Positions 4,142 to 59,740 of a DNA stretch of 64,000 nt are shown one piece after another. This stretch comes from Kineosporia mesophila (GTDB lineage: Bacteria; Actinomycetota; Actinomycetes; Actinomycetales; Kineosporiaceae): assembly GCF_021129235.1 (NCBI RefSeq), contig NZ_JAJOMA010000025.1, positions 46,084 to 110,083 on the forward strand. The letters are read 5' to 3'. Positions within the stretch are counted from its first letter, which is position 1, and each line of letters starts with the position of its first letter. A program made the translations under genes and the position numbers. The notes beneath the pieces were generated by a model. It was not told the origin of the DNA, did no database searches, and was given only the letters and a program-made list of their open reading frames with translations.

Positions 4142-4444
4142 CGGTGTGTCAGGTTGTGTCTTCGGCCCATCGTTACCCGATCATCGGGTCATCGGTGGGC
4201 CGTAGCGCAAAGCAGCACCGGCGTATCACCTGCACCAAGCACCAACCTCAGGCAAGAAAACAGGAGGGGTCGGCGAGCACCGGTCACCGGTCCTCGGTAG
4301 TGGCCTCCGCGAGATGCCGTCAGTAACAGCGACAGGCGACCCGCGTGGGCCTCGATCGAAGACCGGAACGCCTCGACCACGACTCCCGCACCACTCCTGA
4401 CCGATGCCGCGGCGAAGAGCCGCGGAAGAACAGGAGAGTGACCC
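4142..4444 (+). other. pnp leader region, no gene
   Basis: About 300 bp between the rpsO terminator and pnp hold no convincing gene. Just upstream of the pnp ribosome binding site lies a hairpin CCGCGGC / GAAGA / GCCGCGG (4407-4425) with a GNRA-like pentaloop. Leaders of pnp in other bacteria contain stem-loops used for self-regulation by RNase III and PNPase, so a similar role is possible here. I see no convincing -35/-10 pair. A short ORF that can be read through the region lacks a ribosome binding site and recognisable features. Confidence 0.5.
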
Positions 4445-22292: not shown

Positions 22293-22368
22293 TTCGTGAT
22301 CAGGCAGAGCGTCCCCGGAGTTCTGGATCTCCTGACTCCCGGAGACCTGGGGAAAGCCTTGGCACGAC
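22293..22368 (+). repeat. decayed copy of the CGTGATCATGC palindromic repeat
   Basis: Between psuK and psuG, TTCGTGATCAGGC is followed by CCCCGGAGTTCTGGATCTC and then a partly complementary right side (CTCCCGGAGACCTGGGGAAAG). Its left half aligns closely with the well preserved element at 33514, differing by scattered substitutions, while the right arm has lost most pairing. Confidence 0.6.
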
Positions 22369-33493: not shown

Positions 33494-33513
33494 CCCTTCC
33501 CCCCTCCTTGTTC

Positions 33514-33594
33514 GTGATCATGCAAAATCTCCCCGGAGTTCTAGAACTCTCACTCAGGGAGTTCTAGAACTCGGGGAAGATTTTGCATGATCAC
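33514..33594 (+). repeat. long palindromic repeat, CGTGATCATGC family
   Basis: Two 36-nt arms (33514-33549 and 33559-33594) are near-perfect reverse complements around a 9-nt centre. Each arm runs GTGATCATGCAAAATCT, then CCCCG, then the 14-bp self-palindrome GAGTTCTAGAACTC. It lies between the convergent tetR and nei2 genes, where it would form a strong hairpin in either transcript. Confidence 0.93.
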
Positions 33595-33683
33595 GGAGGG
33601 GTGGGTGCCTGGCTCGGGGAACCGGTGGCAGGCCGGGGACTGCGTGGTCACGAGGGGAGCGTTCACCGCACGAGCTGACCTGA

Positions 33684-37480: not shown

Positions 37481-37537
37481 CTGCGTGATCGTGCCCGTCC
37501 TGCTGGCGATCCCTGGGCTGAGGGCATGATCACGCAG
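37481..37537 (+). repeat. palindromic repeat, CGTGATCATGC family
   Basis: CTGCGTGATCGTGCCC (37481-37496) pairs with GGGCATGATCACGCAG (37522-37537) with one mismatch, around a 25-nt centre. It lies between the FMN reductase gene and the phosphatase gene and shares only the CGTGATC(A/G)TGC core with the other copies. Confidence 0.75.
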
Positions 37538-51539: not shown

Positions 51540-51640
51540 ATCCGTGATCGTGCAACCCCTCAGCCTTTGGTCGGGAGATGTCCCCCGGTTCCCCGGGAAT
51601 GAGGGTGTCTACCGGCGGGGGCTGAGGGCCTGCCCGATCA
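51540..51640 (+). repeat. decayed palindromic repeat, CGTGATCATGC family
   Basis: TCCGTGATCGTGC followed by CCCCTCAGCC (near 51540-51565) pairs imperfectly with GGCTGAGGG and CCCGATCACGCGC (near 51616-51650). Only the CCCTCAGCC/GGCTGAGGG part is a perfect match. It lies in the convergent gap after recX. Confidence 0.55.
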
Positions 51641-51665
51641 CGCGCAAGGGTGAATAGCTCATGCC

Positions 51666-51834
51666 GGAAGGGTTTGCATGATCACGAACGGCGTTGGCCG
51701 ACCACGTCCGGGGAGGGTCTGCATATTCACGAACGGGGTTGGCCCACCGGGTTCGGGGAGGTTTTGCATGATCACGAAAGGGTTGGGGGCCCCGGCCGAA
51801 GGCTGGGGGATCGCATGATCGCGGAGGGGATGGG
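51666..51834 (+). repeat. 45-bp tandem array containing the GCATGATCACG motif
   Basis: Units at 51666-51710, 51711-51755 and about 51756-51802, plus a fourth degenerate one to about 51834, share the pattern GGGGAGGGTTTGCATGATCA, then CGAACGGGGTTGGCC. The GCATGATCACG core recurs at 51676, 51721, 51766 and 51813. Together with the decayed palindrome before it, this fills the 507-bp gap between recX and the first PRC-barrel-like gene; no gene is supported there. Confidence 0.88.
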
Positions 51835-51913: not shown

Positions 51914-52396
51914 TCAGGGCGCGTAGTTTCCGTTGCCCTGCAGGGTCACGTCGTGGGGTTCGTCCGCACGAGGGGCTCCGGTGCCGAAGGCGGCCTCGTG
52001 GCCTCGCCCGGTGAAGGGCACGTCCTCGTCCGGTGAAGAGGCGACGAGGGGTTCGCCCTCGGTCGCGGTGGTGATGCGGGTGTGCCCGTCAAAGGTGTGG
52101 AAGAACTCGTGCAGCCGCGCCACCTGCGCATTCGACAGGGCCCCATCGTGCGGCTCGATGTGGGGCTGGTTGTCCAGCACGTCACCGGAGAAGGGCAGGG
52201 TCAGCCGATCCTGGTCGTCGCGGAGTCCGCCGGCCGGTACGAAGGCCGTCGCGTCGCCGGAGACGATGGACAGCCAGTCGAAGGTATGACCGGAATCGTT
52301 GAAATACACCCCGCTGATGTCTCCGAGGTGCTCACCCCGGGCGTCGTGAATCGGACGGCCCACCAGCTCACGGGCCTCTTGAGGCTTCAGGTTCAC
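51914..52396 (-). CDS. PRC-barrel-like protein, copy 1
   Basis: A 160-residue cytosolic protein. The N-terminal 80 residues look like a PRC-barrel (VNLKPQEARELVGRPIHDARGEHLGDISGVYFNDSGHTFDWLSIV), a small beta domain that binds RNA or protein partners. The C-terminal half is not a known domain to me: VARLHEFFHTFDGHT is followed by an acidic stretch and the closing motif DEPHDVTLQGNGNYAP. GTG 52396 has a strong GGAGGAG just upstream. A paralogue with the same C-terminal motif lies at 53219-53716 in the same orientation. Stress-related roles are common for PRC-barrel proteins, but nothing here shows one. Confidence 0.75.
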   Translation of the reverse strand: MNLKPQEARELVGRPIHDARGEHLGDISGVYFNDSGHTFDWLSIVSGDATAFVPAGGLRDDQDRLTLPFSGDVLDNQPHIEPHDGALSNAQVARLHEFFHTFDGHTRITTATEGEPLVASSPDEDVPFTGRGHEAAFGTGAPRADEPHDVTLQGNGNYAP

Positions 52397-52523
52397 GTCT
52401 CCTCCTTCATCGTGCAGCCCGGGAGTCCCGGGAAGGCCCAGTCTGCTGCGGCACCCCGGGAACACCACTCGAGACCGCCACGGCTGAAATCCCTCTGAGA
52501 TCAACGACCTACCGTCGCAGTCA

Positions 52524-53190
52524 TGACTGGCACGGTCGATTACCTGATCATCGGAGCGGGTCCGGCGGGGCTGGAGCCGGCAGCCGGGTTCGAGCGCTCG
52601 GGCCGGAACCACCTGGTGCTGGAGGCATGACCCGGGCCCGGCACCTTCTTCGAGACCTCCCCACGGCACCGCCGGCTGATCGCGATCAACAAGAGACGCA
52701 CCGGCTCGCCGCATCCCGAGTTCAACCTGCGGATGGACTGGAACTCGAACCTCAGCGGTGACGACAACGACCTGGAGCTGCTGTTCCCGGCCTGCACTCT
52801 GTCGTGCGGTTCGACCGCCACCGCGAGCCGGTGGCCACGCACCACCTCGCCGAGAACCTGGAGAACGAGTGAGACCGGGCCGCCGTGCACCAGGAACCAC
52901 TCACGGCCATCCTCACTGAACAGCTGAGCCAGGAGGCCGTGAGCGCCCATGTGGTGGGTGTGCCCGACGAGACCACGGGTGAGGCGGTGGTCGCCTTCCG
53001 GGTGCTGCGGGAGCCCGCGGGTGCGCAGCCCGAGTCGGAGCTTGAGGACGAGGTCCGCGGGCATCTGGGGGCCTCGTCCGTCCCGAGTGCTTTCACCGTG
53101 ATCGACAGGCTCCCGCACACTCCGGGGAAAAGCCCGGCAGGAGATCGTCCCCTCCTCCTCGTTCGTGATCATGCCAACGTTCCCCGGGGA
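52524..53190 (+). pseudogene. remnant of an FAD-dependent oxidoreductase joined to an acetyl-CoA synthetase C-terminal fragment
   Basis: From ATG 52524 the frame reads MTGTVDYLIIGAGPAGL, a clear FAD dinucleotide-binding start, but hits TGA at codon 36. It resumes in the same frame with [17 protein letters not shown] and [11 protein letters not shown], typical of a flavoprotein oxidoreductase, and stops resembling it near 52800. Another frame then gives [12 protein letters not shown], a second TGA near 52870 and [13 protein letters not shown], which look like the C-terminus of the same enzyme, so an internal deletion occurred. After it VVGVPDETTGEAVVAFRVLRE and LPHTPGKS match the C-terminal domain of acyl/acetyl-CoA synthetases, cut off at the palindrome at 53157. 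Two nonsense codons, a frame change and a fusion make a functional product very unlikely. Confidence 0.8.
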
Positions 53191-53214
53191 ACGTTGGCAT
53201 GATCACGAACGAGG
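53157..53214 (+). repeat. 58-bp perfect palindrome, CGTGATCATGC family
   Basis: Two 29-nt arms (53157-53185 and 53186-53214) are perfect reverse complements with no spacer. Each arm reads CCTCGTTCGTGATCATGCC then AACGTTCCCC. It truncates the pseudogene and ends 4 bp before the stop codon of the convergent PRC-barrel-like gene, where it would act as a terminator hairpin. Confidence 0.96.
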
Positions 53215-53218
53215 AAGA

Positions 53219-53716
53219 CTACGGCGCGTGGTTGCCGGTGCCCTGCAACGTTACGTCGTGGGGTTCGTTGGGGCCGGGAGTGCCCGTGCCGAAAGCGGTT
53301 TCGTGGGCACGTCCCTTGAACAGCGTGTGCGGGTCGGGCACCGTGCTCGGCTGCGGGAACTGGGGCGCGCCCTCGTGCGCGCTGGTGAGGTGCTCGCCCG
53401 CGAAGGTGCCGAAGAACTCGTGCAGCCGGGCCACCTGCACGCCCGACAGGGCGTGGTCACGCGGCTTGATGCGGGGCATGTTGCGGATGTCGTCGCGGAC
53501 CAGGGGCACGAGCAGACCCCGGGCGAACGGCGTGATCCGCGCGGCCGGGACGAAGGCGTCCCGTTCCACGAAGAAACTGGTGCTGAACGACATCCAGGCC
53601 GGGACGCCGGTGGCGTCGTCGAACCAGATCCCGTCGGCCTTGCCCACCATCATCTCGGTGGCGTCGAAAACCGTGAGGCCGACGTACGTCCGGACTTCTT
53701 CACCGGTCAGAGTCAT
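53219..53716 (-). CDS. PRC-barrel-like protein, copy 2
   Basis: A 165-residue paralogue of the gene at 51914-52396. The N-terminal half is PRC-barrel-like (MTLTGEEVRTYVGLTVFDATEMMVGKADGIWFDD), and the C-terminal half shares VARLHEFFGTFAGEH, HETAFGTG and the closing NEPHDVTLQGTGNHAP motif with copy 1. The ATG at 53716 has GGAGGA upstream (AAGGAGGAGCC). The two copies are in tandem on the same strand, separated by a pseudogene and a palindrome. The conserved C-terminal motif across diverged proteins implies it is functional, but the function is unknown. Confidence 0.77.
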   Translation of the reverse strand: MTLTGEEVRTYVGLTVFDATEMMVGKADGIWFDDATGVPAWMSFSTSFFVERDAFVPAARITPFARGLLVPLVRDDIRNMPRIKPRDHALSGVQVARLHEFFGTFAGEHLTSAHEGAPQFPQPSTVPDPHTLFKGRAHETAFGTGTPGPNEPHDVTLQGTGNHAP

Positions 53717-53817
53717 GGCTCCTCCTTCGCCGGAGCGCCCCTGCGAAGGGCGCCGGTGCGAGGAGCCCAGTCTCCCGCGCACCGGCGCCCTTGGCAGGGG
53801 GTGTTCGCCCGATCGGG

Positions 53818-54726
53818 TCAGAGGGTGGTGTTGCCTGCGCTGCCCGGATCGAGGTGGATCGGGTTTATCCCGCGCCCGGCCGACCGGCGCGACATCCGCC
53901 GCTGCGCAAGGTTCGCCAGCCAGGACAGCGTGAAGTTCACCGCAATGAAGATGATGGCGACGAAAAGCAGGGTCTGCAGCGGATTCTTCAGGTTCAGATA
54001 GACGAACTGGCCCTTGCGCAGCAGTTCCTCGTAACCGCCGATGAAGGCGATCAGCGAGGTGTCTTTCAGCACGACGACCATCTGGCTGATGATGGCCGGC
54101 AGCATGGTCCGGAAGGCCTGGGGCAGCTGGATCATCCGCATGGTCTGCAGCGGGGTGAGCCCGATGACCAGACCGGCCTCGCGCTGGCCGCCTGGCAGCG
54201 AGTTGACCCCGGCCCGGAGGATCTCGGCGAAGATCACCGAGTTGTAGGCGACCAGACCGACGACCATCCACCAGAACGCGTCCGGTCCGGGCAGCGGCTC
54301 GTAGTTGACGCCGAGGTCGGGCAGCAGCTGGTAGGCCATGTACATCAGCACGACGACGGGCAGACCGCGGAAGAACTCGATCACGGCGACCAGTGGAACC
54401 CGTGATCGACGTCCGAGCATCACCCGGGCGATCCCGAGGACGATGCCGATGGCCACCGAGAGGGTGATCGCGACCAGCGCGCCCACGAGCGTGTTGCGTA
54501 GCCCGGTGCCGAGCTGCTTCCAGACCGCCTGGAAGCTCTCGTCGGACGGGTCGAGCAGCGGCGACCAGCGATCGCTCTCGAACTGTCCCTGGTCGTCGAG
54601 CCGGGCATAGATCAGGTAGAGCACGGCGAGCGTGAGCAGCCCGACGACGACGCTGCCGACCAGTGCCCTCCGGCGGGCCCGGGGTCCGGGAACGTCGTAG
54701 AGGACGGAGAGATTGGTATCGCTCAT
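53818..54726 (-). CDS. gluD: glutamate-type amino acid ABC transporter permease GluD
   Basis: A 302-residue membrane subunit of a polar-amino-acid importer, like GluD of Corynebacterium and Streptomyces. It has a longer cytoplasmic N-terminus, then five to six helices; the coupling region contains LPGGQREAGLVIGLTPLQTMRMIQLPQAFRTMLPAIISQ, the EAA loop that contacts the ATPase. The start of the transmembrane domain is LRNTLVGALVAITLSVAIGIVLG. Its ATG overlaps the gluC stop by 4 bp. It is last in the gluA-B-C-D operon. Confidence 0.93.
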   Translation of the reverse strand: MSDTNLSVLYDVPGPRARRRALVGSVVVGLLTLAVLYLIYARLDDQGQFESDRWSPLLDPSDESFQAVWKQLGTGLRNTLVGALVAITLSVAIGIVLGIARVMLGRRSRVPLVAVIEFFRGLPVVVLMYMAYQLLPDLGVNYEPLPGPDAFWWMVVGLVAYNSVIFAEILRAGVNSLPGGQREAGLVIGLTPLQTMRMIQLPQAFRTMLPAIISQMVVVLKDTSLIAFIGGYEELLRKGQFVYLNLKNPLQTLLFVAIIFIAVNFTLSWLANLAQRRMSRRSAGRGINPIHLDPGSAGNTTL

Positions 54727-58162: not shown

Positions 58163-58225
58163 GCATCCGGCAAACATCTGGCGCAGCAAGGTTCTGGTCG
58201 TGATCATGCACAGCTCGGCTCCTCG

Positions 58226-59740
58226 ATGAGGACACGTCTCTCCGCTCTGCTGTTGTTGCTGATGGGTGTGGTGCTCGCATCCCTGGGGGTGCCGCTGATG
58301 ACCGGTATCGCCTCCGACGAGGCGCGGACCCTGCACACCGACCGGATGGCCGACCTGTCGTTGTTCGTCAGCACCGTGCCGTTCGCCCCGGACGCCGGTG
58401 ACGTCGAGGTACAGACCCTCGAGCGGGACCTGAACCGCTACGAGGAGCTCTACGGCATCTCGGTGACCGTGTACGACGCCGCCCGGCGGCCCCGGTTCAG
58501 CGGCCACGACGACCCCACCACCGCGCTGAACCCGGCGGAGGACGCCGCCCTCGACACGGCCCTGTCCGGCCGGCTCACCGAGGTGTGGGACCAGATCCAG
58601 CCCTGGGACGACGAGCCCCTGGTGGCCGCCCAGCCGGTGGTGCGCGACGGGGACGTCGTGGGTGCGGTGGTGAGCGTCTCGCCGGTGGACCGGGCCGCGA
58701 ACCGGGTACTGCAACGCTGGTCGATCCTGATCGCCCTGGAACTGGTCGCCATGATCGGGGCGGTTGCGCTGGCCGACCGGCTGGCCCGCCGGCTGCTCAA
58801 ACCGGTCGGGCGCCTGGACGAGGCCGCGCACCAGATCTCCGCCGGCGACCTCTCCGCCCGGGTGCCCACCGGCTCCGGCCCTCCGGAACTGCGCCGTCTG
58901 GAGACCTCCTTCAACGAGATGGCGGTGCACGTGCAGGGCGCCGTCGAGGCCCAGCGCGCCTTCGTCGCCGACGCCAGCCACCAGCTGCGCAACCCGCTCG
59001 CCGCGCTGCTCATGCGGCTGGAGGCGCTGAACCTGGCCGCCGGGATGCCCGGCACCTCACCGGCCCGGCAGACCGAGGCGATGGAACGGGCCCTGGCCGA
59101 CGGCAAGCACCTGGCCGGCACCCTCGACCGGATGCTCGCGCTCGCCACGGTCGAGAACGCCGGCGCCCCCGCCGTCCTGCTCGACGCCGCCGCGGTGGTG
59201 GACGAGCGGCTGGCCTTCTGGATGGTCGTCGCCGACCGTCGCGACATCCATCTGGTGCGGCGGGGAATCGCGCACGCCCGCGCCCAGCACGACGCCGGGG
59301 CCCTGGCGGGGGCGCTGGACGCCGTGCTCGACAACGCCCTCAAGTACTCACCGGAAGGTGGCACCGTCACGGTCGACGTGCGTCCTGTGGCCCTGTTCCC
59401 CCCGACTCCTCCAGAACCGCCGCCGGTCCCGCTCGCCGGGCCCGGTTCGTCCTCTGTTCTGGCGCTGGTGACCGACCCCCCGAACCCACCGCGACCGGTG
59501 GACGACGGGGTGCTGGTGACGGTGACCGACGACGGACCCGGGGTGGCGGCCGAGGATCTGCCCCGGGTGTCGGACCGGTTCTGGCGCTCGCAGGACGCCG
59601 GGCAGGAGGGCACCGGGCTGGGCATGTCGATCGCGAAGACACTGGTGGAACGCCATCACGGCACGATGGAGGTGGACACGGGGGAGGAGGGCGGCCTGCG
59701 CGTGACGCTCTGGCTGCCGCCGGTGCCCGGACCCCGCTGA
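58226..59740 (+). CDS. sensor histidine kinase
   Basis: A 504-residue membrane kinase, partner of the preceding response regulator. The first membrane helix is at about 5-27, an extracytoplasmic sensor domain at about 28-163, and the second helix is ILIALELVAMIGAVALA (167-183). A HAMP domain (about 184-240) precedes the H-box ADASHQLRNPLAALLMRLEAL with phosphorylated His252. The ATPase has the N-box DAVLDNALKYSPEGG, a Pro-rich insertion, VTDDGPGV and GTGLGMSIAKTLVERHHG. The ATG is preceded by a stray CGTGATCATGCA core of the repeat family. The gene may sense through the TAXI binding protein encoded convergently next door. Confidence 0.93.
   Translation: MRTRLSALLLLLMGVVLASLGVPLMTGIASDEARTLHTDRMADLSLFVSTVPFAPDAGDVEVQTLERDLNRYEELYGISVTVYDAARRPRFSGHDDPTTALNPAEDAALDTALSGRLTEVWDQIQPWDDEPLVAAQPVVRDGDVVGAVVSVSPVDRAANRVLQRWSILIALELVAMIGAVALADRLARRLLKPVGRLDEAAHQISAGDLSARVPTGSGPPELRRLETSFNEMAVHVQGAVEAQRAFVADASHQLRNPLAALLMRLEALNLAAGMPGTSPARQTEAMERALADGKHLAGTLDRMLALATVENAGAPAVLLDAAAVVDERLAFWMVVADRRDIHLVRRGIAHARAQHDAGALAGALDAVLDNALKYSPEGGTVTVDVRPVALFPPTPPEPPPVPLAGPGSSSVLALVTDPPNPPRPVDDGVLVTVTDDGPGVAAEDLPRVSDRFWRSQDAGQEGTGLGMSIAKTLVERHHGTMEVDTGEEGGLRVTLWLPPVPGPR

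Follow-up and report, generated by a model that had tools for sequence, protein, structure and literature searches.

A dispersed family of palindromes in Kineosporia mesophila that exchange their interiors and are tied to an AbiEi-Vsr nuclease-like gene

Results

Palindrome copies in the window

The window analysed here, a 64-kb stretch of the Kineosporia mesophila genome (G000; 7.78 Mb in 61 contigs), holds several copies of a palindrome that recurs throughout the genome and whose half-sites also bracket, outside the window, a gene for a predicted AbiEi-Vsr nuclease. The copy at 33514-33594 is 81 bp long and reads GTGATCATGC-AAAATCTCCCCG-GAGTTCTAGAACTC-TCACTCAGG-GAGTTCTAGAACTC-GGGGAAGATTTT-GCATGATCAC, with GTGATCATGC outermost, AAAATCTCCCCG as the inner arm and GAGTTCTAGAACTC doubled at the centre. 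It begins 20 bp past the stop of a TetR-family gene and ends 89 bp before the stop codon of a formamidopyrimidine-glycosylase-like gene that converges on it; as RNA, the interval 33505-33604 folds with -70.8 kcal/mol (z score -11.9).

The GTGATCATGC 10-mer of this copy is found at four further places in the window (at 22293 with one mismatch; two of the four are decayed) and alone at 58200. The 42-bp copy at 53165..53206 is perfect, with inner arm CAACGTT, centre CCCCGGGG and a fold z score of -12.6, and its symmetry extends outward into CTCGTTC/GAACGAG. The 49-bp copy at 37485..37533 has intact 10-mers (GTGATCGTGC and GTGATCATGC) around an interior that pairs weakly (z -4.5). A sequence-only reading of the window had listed five sites sharing an inward-facing core; the core does recur, yet the site at 22293 is a decayed copy of a longer class (22296..22365, GTGATCAGGC, one 10-mer mismatch) whose fold barely beats shuffled sequence (z -1.2; 25 of 200 shuffles equally good), and the one at 51540-51834 is a cluster of decayed half-sites (51544..51822, with half-sites at 51544 (+), 51632 (-), 51676 (-), 51766 (-) and 51813 (-)). 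The lone half-site GTGATCATGC at 58200..58209 (+) lies immediately upstream of an open reading frame (ORF) starting at 58226. With up to one mismatch allowed, the window contains 44 occurrences of GTGATCRTGC, where 11.1 would be expected (standard deviation 3.2).

The neighbouring genes at 51914-52900 (-) and 53219-54271 (-) have alike 3' ends and no Pfam match, and palindrome copies follow the stops of both. An Rfam scan with gathering cut-offs assigned the palindromes to no family; its sole match in the window is an Actino-pnp cis-regulatory RNA at 4286-4367 (+), at 58.5 bits.

A genome-wide family with matched inner arms

The dispersal that the window suggested extends to the whole genome: there are 59 strict GTGATCRTGC…GCAYGATCAC palindromes in G000 and none in the reversed control, and 461 half-sites TTCGTGATCATGC with up to one mismatch (231 and 230 on the two strands) against 3 (2 and 1) in the control, so that many half-sites lie outside strict pairs. 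The copies fall into length classes. Those of about 42 bp consist of the 10-mer, 7 variable nucleotides and CCCC/GGGG; those of about 58 bp add GAGTTCTAGAACTC to this plan; the 70-72-bp class adds a GC-rich filler; and in the class of about 81 bp two GAGTTCTAGAACTC flank a short spacer.

The arms of a copy match each other even as they differ between copies. Among G000 copies of at least 34 bp, duplicates removed, 53 in number and with 32 different left arms, the inner 7 nucleotides pair within a copy at 0.857. Permuting the arms between copies lowers this to 0.535 (maximum of 2000 permutations 0.617), and 26 of the 53 have perfect arms. The same holds in a genome of the same genus, G005 (0.783 against 0.534; perfect arms in 25 of 52). 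The arm covariation that the sequence-only reading had noticed is therefore a property of the inner arms: the 7 nucleotides outside the 10-mer pair within a copy at 0.528, against 0.516 after permutation, and since they pair no better than permuted arms, the outer symmetry reflects a shared consensus.

In a search of named genomes the motif was found in at least 103 stretches, several of them outside Actinomycetota; a simple arithmetic estimate gives a chance expectation of about 7 stretches. The matches listed include Planotetraspora, Actinomadura, Bailinhaonella, Quadrisphaera and metagenome-assembled genomes of Kineosporiaceae. Further genomes combine the same 10-mer with other inner arms (ACTTTCGA in G007, ACGTTCGCCCC in G016, ACGCCAGCGCA in G034 and AATCCCGCCACC in G013). 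Palindromes are patchy among close relatives, numbering none in G004, 1 in G001, 10 in G002, 4 in G003 and 73 in G005, and within the class Actinomycetes they were found in 16 of 394 genomes, these searches counting palindromes that carry the 10-mer as their foot. At Planotetraspora loci (including L018, L050, L082 and L088) the GTGATCATGC pair sits inside a 200-400-bp stretch that is similar between loci, with some matches in both orientations and with variable spacers between the 10-mers. In PMC5839063, one of the 10-mer strings stands in a table of S. coelicolor sites.

A nuclease-like gene bracketed by half-palindromes

The architecture of the 33514 copy is found again at G000:C1:144960-146088, where a 1.1-kb segment with a gene replaces the short spacer; both ends of the segment are half-palindromes of the 81-bp class, in inverted orientation. 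This is the only gene-carrying copy in 240 kb of G000, and a protein search found the gene to be single in that genome. The sequence-only reading had found no transposase in the window, which agrees with what was seen there in this analysis; the candidate enzyme, not of the RAYT (REP-associated tyrosine transposase) type, lies elsewhere in the genome.

The encoded protein has 319 amino acids and is predicted to consist of an AbiEi-like DNA-binding domain fused to a Vsr-type nuclease. Pfam places AbiEi_4 above its cut-off, and MTES_1575 restriction endonuclease (REase) and AbiEi_1 below theirs; the MTES_1575 domain is described as a Vsr-type REase in PMC3710099. The AlphaFold2 model, built with 50 homologues, has a pLDDT of 93.1, and its predicted fold matches AbiEi over residues 7-202 and both Vsr and the homing endonuclease I-Bth0305I over residues 205-310, the domain that carries invariant acidic and His residues. 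The Pfam scan gave no Y1/HUH match, a PDB sequence-profile search and an NCBIfam scan gave none for this protein, and the DUF559 Pfam model has one match in the genome, a different gene. Between G000 and G005 the gene has few amino-acid changes relative to silent ones (dN 0.041, dS 0.227). One of its neighbours is a methylmalonyl-CoA mutase gene and the other, which has no Pfam match in the frame submitted, presumably encodes a relative of cobalamin adenosyltransferase; no toxin was recognised in either position.

Interiors are exchanged between species

Twelve orthologous element pairs, with flanks about 89-96% identical, were aligned directly, and in addition a 240-kb portion of G000 was set against 234 kb of G005. 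The 10-mers are kept between the species and the interiors are replaced blockwise. In L151/L168 the interiors are CGACCTT and GAAGTGT, both arms being perfect in each, in flanks that are 94% identical; in L134/L160 one species has the 70-bp class and the other the 42-bp class. Interior orientation was scored for 20 pairs: 3 are inverted (L001/L178, 1363/21633 and the 1.1-kb gene segment), 8 direct, including one weak case (19767/39837) whose two copies differ in class, and 9 symmetric or not comparable. An assembly artefact was considered for the inversion of the 1.1-kb segment and judged unlikely, since the inverted interiors of 51 and 61 bp would fit in one read. The palindrome thus recombines, its recognition part being constant while the interior is exchanged, and it is tied to a nuclease-like gene inside the same repeat.

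Copies also decay. At the G005 site orthologous to 33514 only CATGATCACGG remains, the orthologue of 37485..37533 is decayed, and a related decayed cluster stands at the orthologue of 51544..51822, for which no counterpart was seen in the G003 stretch compared. At the four window sites that were alignable, no recognisable copy was present in the G001-G004 flanks that aligned (for several flanks no alignment was obtained).

Co-occurrence of gene and repeats across genomes

In a set of 58 genomes, close homologues of the protein (at least 186 bits, the remainder scoring at most 114 bits, a cut set at the gap seen in the result) occur in seven, all of which carry palindromes (G000 59, G005 73, G013 7, G016 24, G019 1, G027 3, G034 14), and in none of the 47 palindrome-free genomes. 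Inverted repeats bracket 12 of 12 close homologues in these seven genomes, often as arrays of 2-5 repeats mostly 31-44 bp apart, and the flanking arm occurs among the dispersed palindromes of G000, G005, G013, G016 and G034. The four G019 paralogues and the three of G027 have private variants of the flanking motif. Among loci of at least 3300 bp, the repeat loci L277-L279 being set aside, 18 of the 32 close homologues and 4 of the 23 distant ones have exact inverted repeats, 16 bp or longer, within 300 bp on both sides; of 3000 random windows taken from contigs in the genus of G000, 3 do.

Class-wide (394 genomes, gene called at E 1e-40), the gene is found in 10 of the 16 palindrome genomes. 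The motif drifts at the class-wide gene loci (CTGATCATGC, TTGATCATGC, GCGATCATGC), and in gene family f45 the motifs lack GATC and several form 21-22-bp arrays. Gene loci are common to several genera, and the gene is therefore often inherited in place while the motif changes. Many AbiEi-Vsr genes (L287-L305) have direct-repeat arrays on both sides, several of 21-22 bp, which are mutually inverted and unrelated to GTGATC. Among distant homologues, L262, L274, L260, L255 and L267 have palindromes on one or both sides, each of another motif.

Discussion

A nuclease that may spread and re-copy its own repeats

The palindromes are a dispersed family whose half-sites also bracket the AbiEi-Vsr gene, and we consider it probable that its product binds and cuts them, and so would spread and re-copy them. 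Binding, cutting and mobilisation are inferred. Its N-terminal domains would recognise GTGATCATGC or a cognate variant, and the nuclease would nick or cut the palindrome. If the break were then mended from a second copy or across the hairpin, the interior could be replaced or flipped and the arms kept alike. Occasional new copies would survive chiefly just past stops, where a hairpin may be harmless or even useful as a bidirectional terminator. The sequence-only reading had already raised a REP-like (repetitive extragenic palindromic) copying process that keeps symmetry, and this proposal has gained from the analysis: copies are many, their arms covary, interiors are swapped or inverted with the 10-mer kept, and a gene is bracketed by the repeats.

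A number of observations weigh against such a role for the protein. The cut between close and distant homologues was chosen after the gap was seen and the genomes compared are not independent; at E 0.001 a distant homologue turns up in nearly every genome (51 of 58), and class-wide 63 of 378 palindrome-free genomes hold the gene, with other motifs or none. Conversely, palindromes occur without the gene. G001, G002 and G003 have 1, 10 and 4 palindromes and no close homologue, and palindromes are likewise present, with no gene reaching E 1e-40 among the 5 candidates scored per genome, in G112 and G128 (both 84% complete), G125, G143, G151 and G434. G007 carries 65 palindromes, and of its six AbiEi-like matches the four inspected are not flanked by that motif; one of its AbiEi-like genes (L316, G007:C38) matches only query residues 48-198. 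This locus, common to G146, G133 and others, adjoins what we take from its translation to be a RelA/SpoT-like gene, and our guess is that the truncated-match gene could be a broken partner.

The class-wide overlap is itself uneven: three of the 10 genomes (G118, G133 and G420) have a single palindrome apiece; no such flank accompanies the gene in G420, the one in G118 has a single half-site on just one of its sides, and the motif of the best G230 gene differs from that genome's 25 palindromes. The motifs of two other genes yield 2 palindromes in G019, 1 each in G017 and G035 and none in the rest of the 58 genomes, and not every gene has therefore amplified its repeat. Between G000 and G005, nine of 12 facing-pair loci are present in both species, one is halved in G005 and two are G005-only, the latter without clean target duplication, and no new insertion with a clean empty site was seen in the aligned stretch. 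Foldseek alone matches the nuclease fold weakly (3r3p_B, E 0.16). Finally, half-sites can bound another gene: inward-facing ones 1.45 kb apart enclose an mscS-type channel gene (L324:1698-3148, G000:C1), with further half-sites beyond the pair, possibly two decayed copies.

Placement past stop codons and alternative explanations

Using a simple codon-model gene finder, and copies more than 400 bp from a locus end, 47 of 52 copies in G000 fall outside predicted genes: 22 between convergent, 24 between co-oriented and 1 between divergent genes. The five in predicted genes were set aside from the orientation test, and at least the one at 53165 lies in a spurious ORF of the gene finder. Against 170 background gene pairs (27 convergent, 116 co-oriented, 27 divergent), the convergent excess is clear (22 of 47 classified copies; p 2e-5). 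A stop codon neighbours 46 of the 47 copies, at a median of 16.5 bp and within 40 bp for 37, and 19 of the 24 co-oriented copies lie closer to the stop codon upstream than to the following start. Four other genomes give, for 19 copies, 9 convergent, 7 co-oriented, 2 divergent and 1 in a predicted gene. In the window itself the sequence-only reading had placed three of the five sites between convergent genes; by ORFs and gene predictions there are two (33514 and 51540-51834), those at 22293, 37481 and 53157 lying between co-oriented genes.

The likeliest alternative, though in our judgement an unlikely one, is that the palindromes are intrinsic terminators working in both directions, that selection for the RNA hairpin maintains them, and that the conserved 10-mer and shared arms are mere history. 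Besides lying just past stops and between convergent genes, the copies form strong hairpins, their arms covary, and a TGA stop falls within the 10-mer at 9 loci (two of G005, seven of the named set). The earlier suggestion of a terminator role is thus borne out as to position; at the RNA level it finds less. No T-tract follows the hairpin, the 3' flanks being GAACGAAGG-like, and sense-strand mismatches are G.U rather than A.C in a ratio of 29:18 (p 0.14, two species summed, copies partly orthologous), so that there is no evidence for RNA-level selection. Nor does a terminator need the same 10-mer with different arms in several Actinomycetes families, far over the reversed control in searches that asked for this 10-mer. 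The perfect arms of L151/L168, which differ at most positions, are unlike stepwise compensation, and the bracketing of one nuclease gene is left unexplained. The palindromes may act as terminators, but this would leave their association with that gene unaccounted for.

It is still less probable that the protein is a regulator which, in the manner of AbiEi and Rv2827c, uses the flanking repeats as operators of its own gene, with the dispersed palindromes as the operators of its regulon. The AbiEi fold, the binding of inverted repeats by AbiEi proteins (PMC7319586) and the arrays of about 22 or 31-44 bp period adjoining the gene would all suit a regulator. Against it stand the presence of repeats on both sides of the gene, the position of the dispersed copies after stops, with only 1 of 47 classified copies between divergent genes, the fused nuclease domain with its invariant residues, and the swapping and inversion of interiors between species.

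We regard it as very improbable that the palindromes are miniature inverted-repeat transposable elements (MITEs) of some unseen insertion sequence of the conventional kind and that the nuclease gene is a chance passenger. Terminal inverted repeats, many non-autonomous copies and one copy with a gene are what MITEs would show, but across many genomes the inverted motifs around genes of this family differ, the two G005-only sites lack a clean duplication, and the protein is seldom matched in plasmid records (5 of 72,556) or phage records (1 of 50,697), no match covering more than 80% of the query. A signal for chromosome architecture or uptake, recognised by some conserved protein unrelated to this one, would fit the conserved 10-mer and the hundreds of half-sites, but hardly survives their patchiness in close relatives (G004, G001 and G005) and their restriction to so few genomes of the class.

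Significance

Returning to the nuclease that spreads its own repeats, we lean, with restrained confidence, towards a broader proposal: a second, independently evolved REP system in Actinomycetes, in which a large nuclease family, now annotated as AbiEi antitoxins, DUF559 or hypothetical proteins, has each member keep and spread its own palindrome, cutting it so that interiors flip or are copied. The same layout with an unrelated enzyme recurs in several actinomycete families, with several enzyme-motif pairs in one genome. If the proposal holds, many of the conserved hairpins between genes of high-GC bacteria would be relics left by selfish nucleases and not terminators; it offers a testable cause for unexplained hairpins and suggests what a large family of supposed antitoxins, for which no toxin is recognised, might do. 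The loci where the flanking motif changes and the gene stays in position provide a natural series of proteins, and the inversion and exchange of interiors bear on how bacterial palindromes keep their arms alike. To our knowledge, the only described REP-type pairing of palindromes with a dedicated single-copy enzyme uses HUH transposases. In the open-access literature, consulted mostly as titles and openings of abstracts, no link of AbiEi-like nucleases with palindromic repeats was found.

Comparison with known systems

The closest parallel is the REPIN-RAYT system, REPINs being paired REP sequences. According to PMC3116915, RAYT genes are flanked by their own repeat and a genome may hold several enzymes, each with a private repeat. 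Likewise, extragenic palindromes are dispersed here as inverted doublets (the strict pairs), the enzyme gene is flanked by its own repeat, and in G019 and in G027, which contain several such genes, the motif variant differs from gene to gene. Unlike RAYTs, the enzyme has an AbiEi-like fold with a Vsr-type nuclease and no Y1/HUH Pfam match; and whereas most REPs carry a GTAG or CGTC tag at the palindrome foot (PMC3733652), the foot here is TTC-GTGATCATGC. No transposition intermediate was seen. Since the layout is that of REPIN-RAYT and the enzyme is not HUH, we propose that the system works like REPIN-RAYT without being a member.

The protein resembles AbiEi antitoxins and Rv2827c in its predicted N-terminal winged helix and AbiEi C-terminal fold (6y8q, 1zel), but differs from these members of type IV toxin-antitoxin systems in its fused nuclease and in repeats that are genome-wide; no toxin was recognised beside its gene in G000, where one neighbour is the mutase gene and the other had no Pfam match in the frame submitted. 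With Vsr and I-Bth0305I it shares, in the model, the fold and the acidic/His core of residues 205-310; unlike them it has another DNA-binding domain, chromosomal loci common to genera and multi-copy matching palindromes. The ends of Tn7 and Mu each bear several directly repeated sites of about 22 bp, inverted between the ends, which recalls the direct-repeat arrays inverted across the gene; here, however, no DDE transposase was recognised and one nuclease gene only is present. Lastly, the GC-rich intergenic repeats of Streptomyces can be likened to the 70-bp class by their AGCCTTCGGCCGGGAGGTGCCCCC-like centre, but in the Kineosporia palindromes such a centre is mere filler between GTGATCATGC arms.
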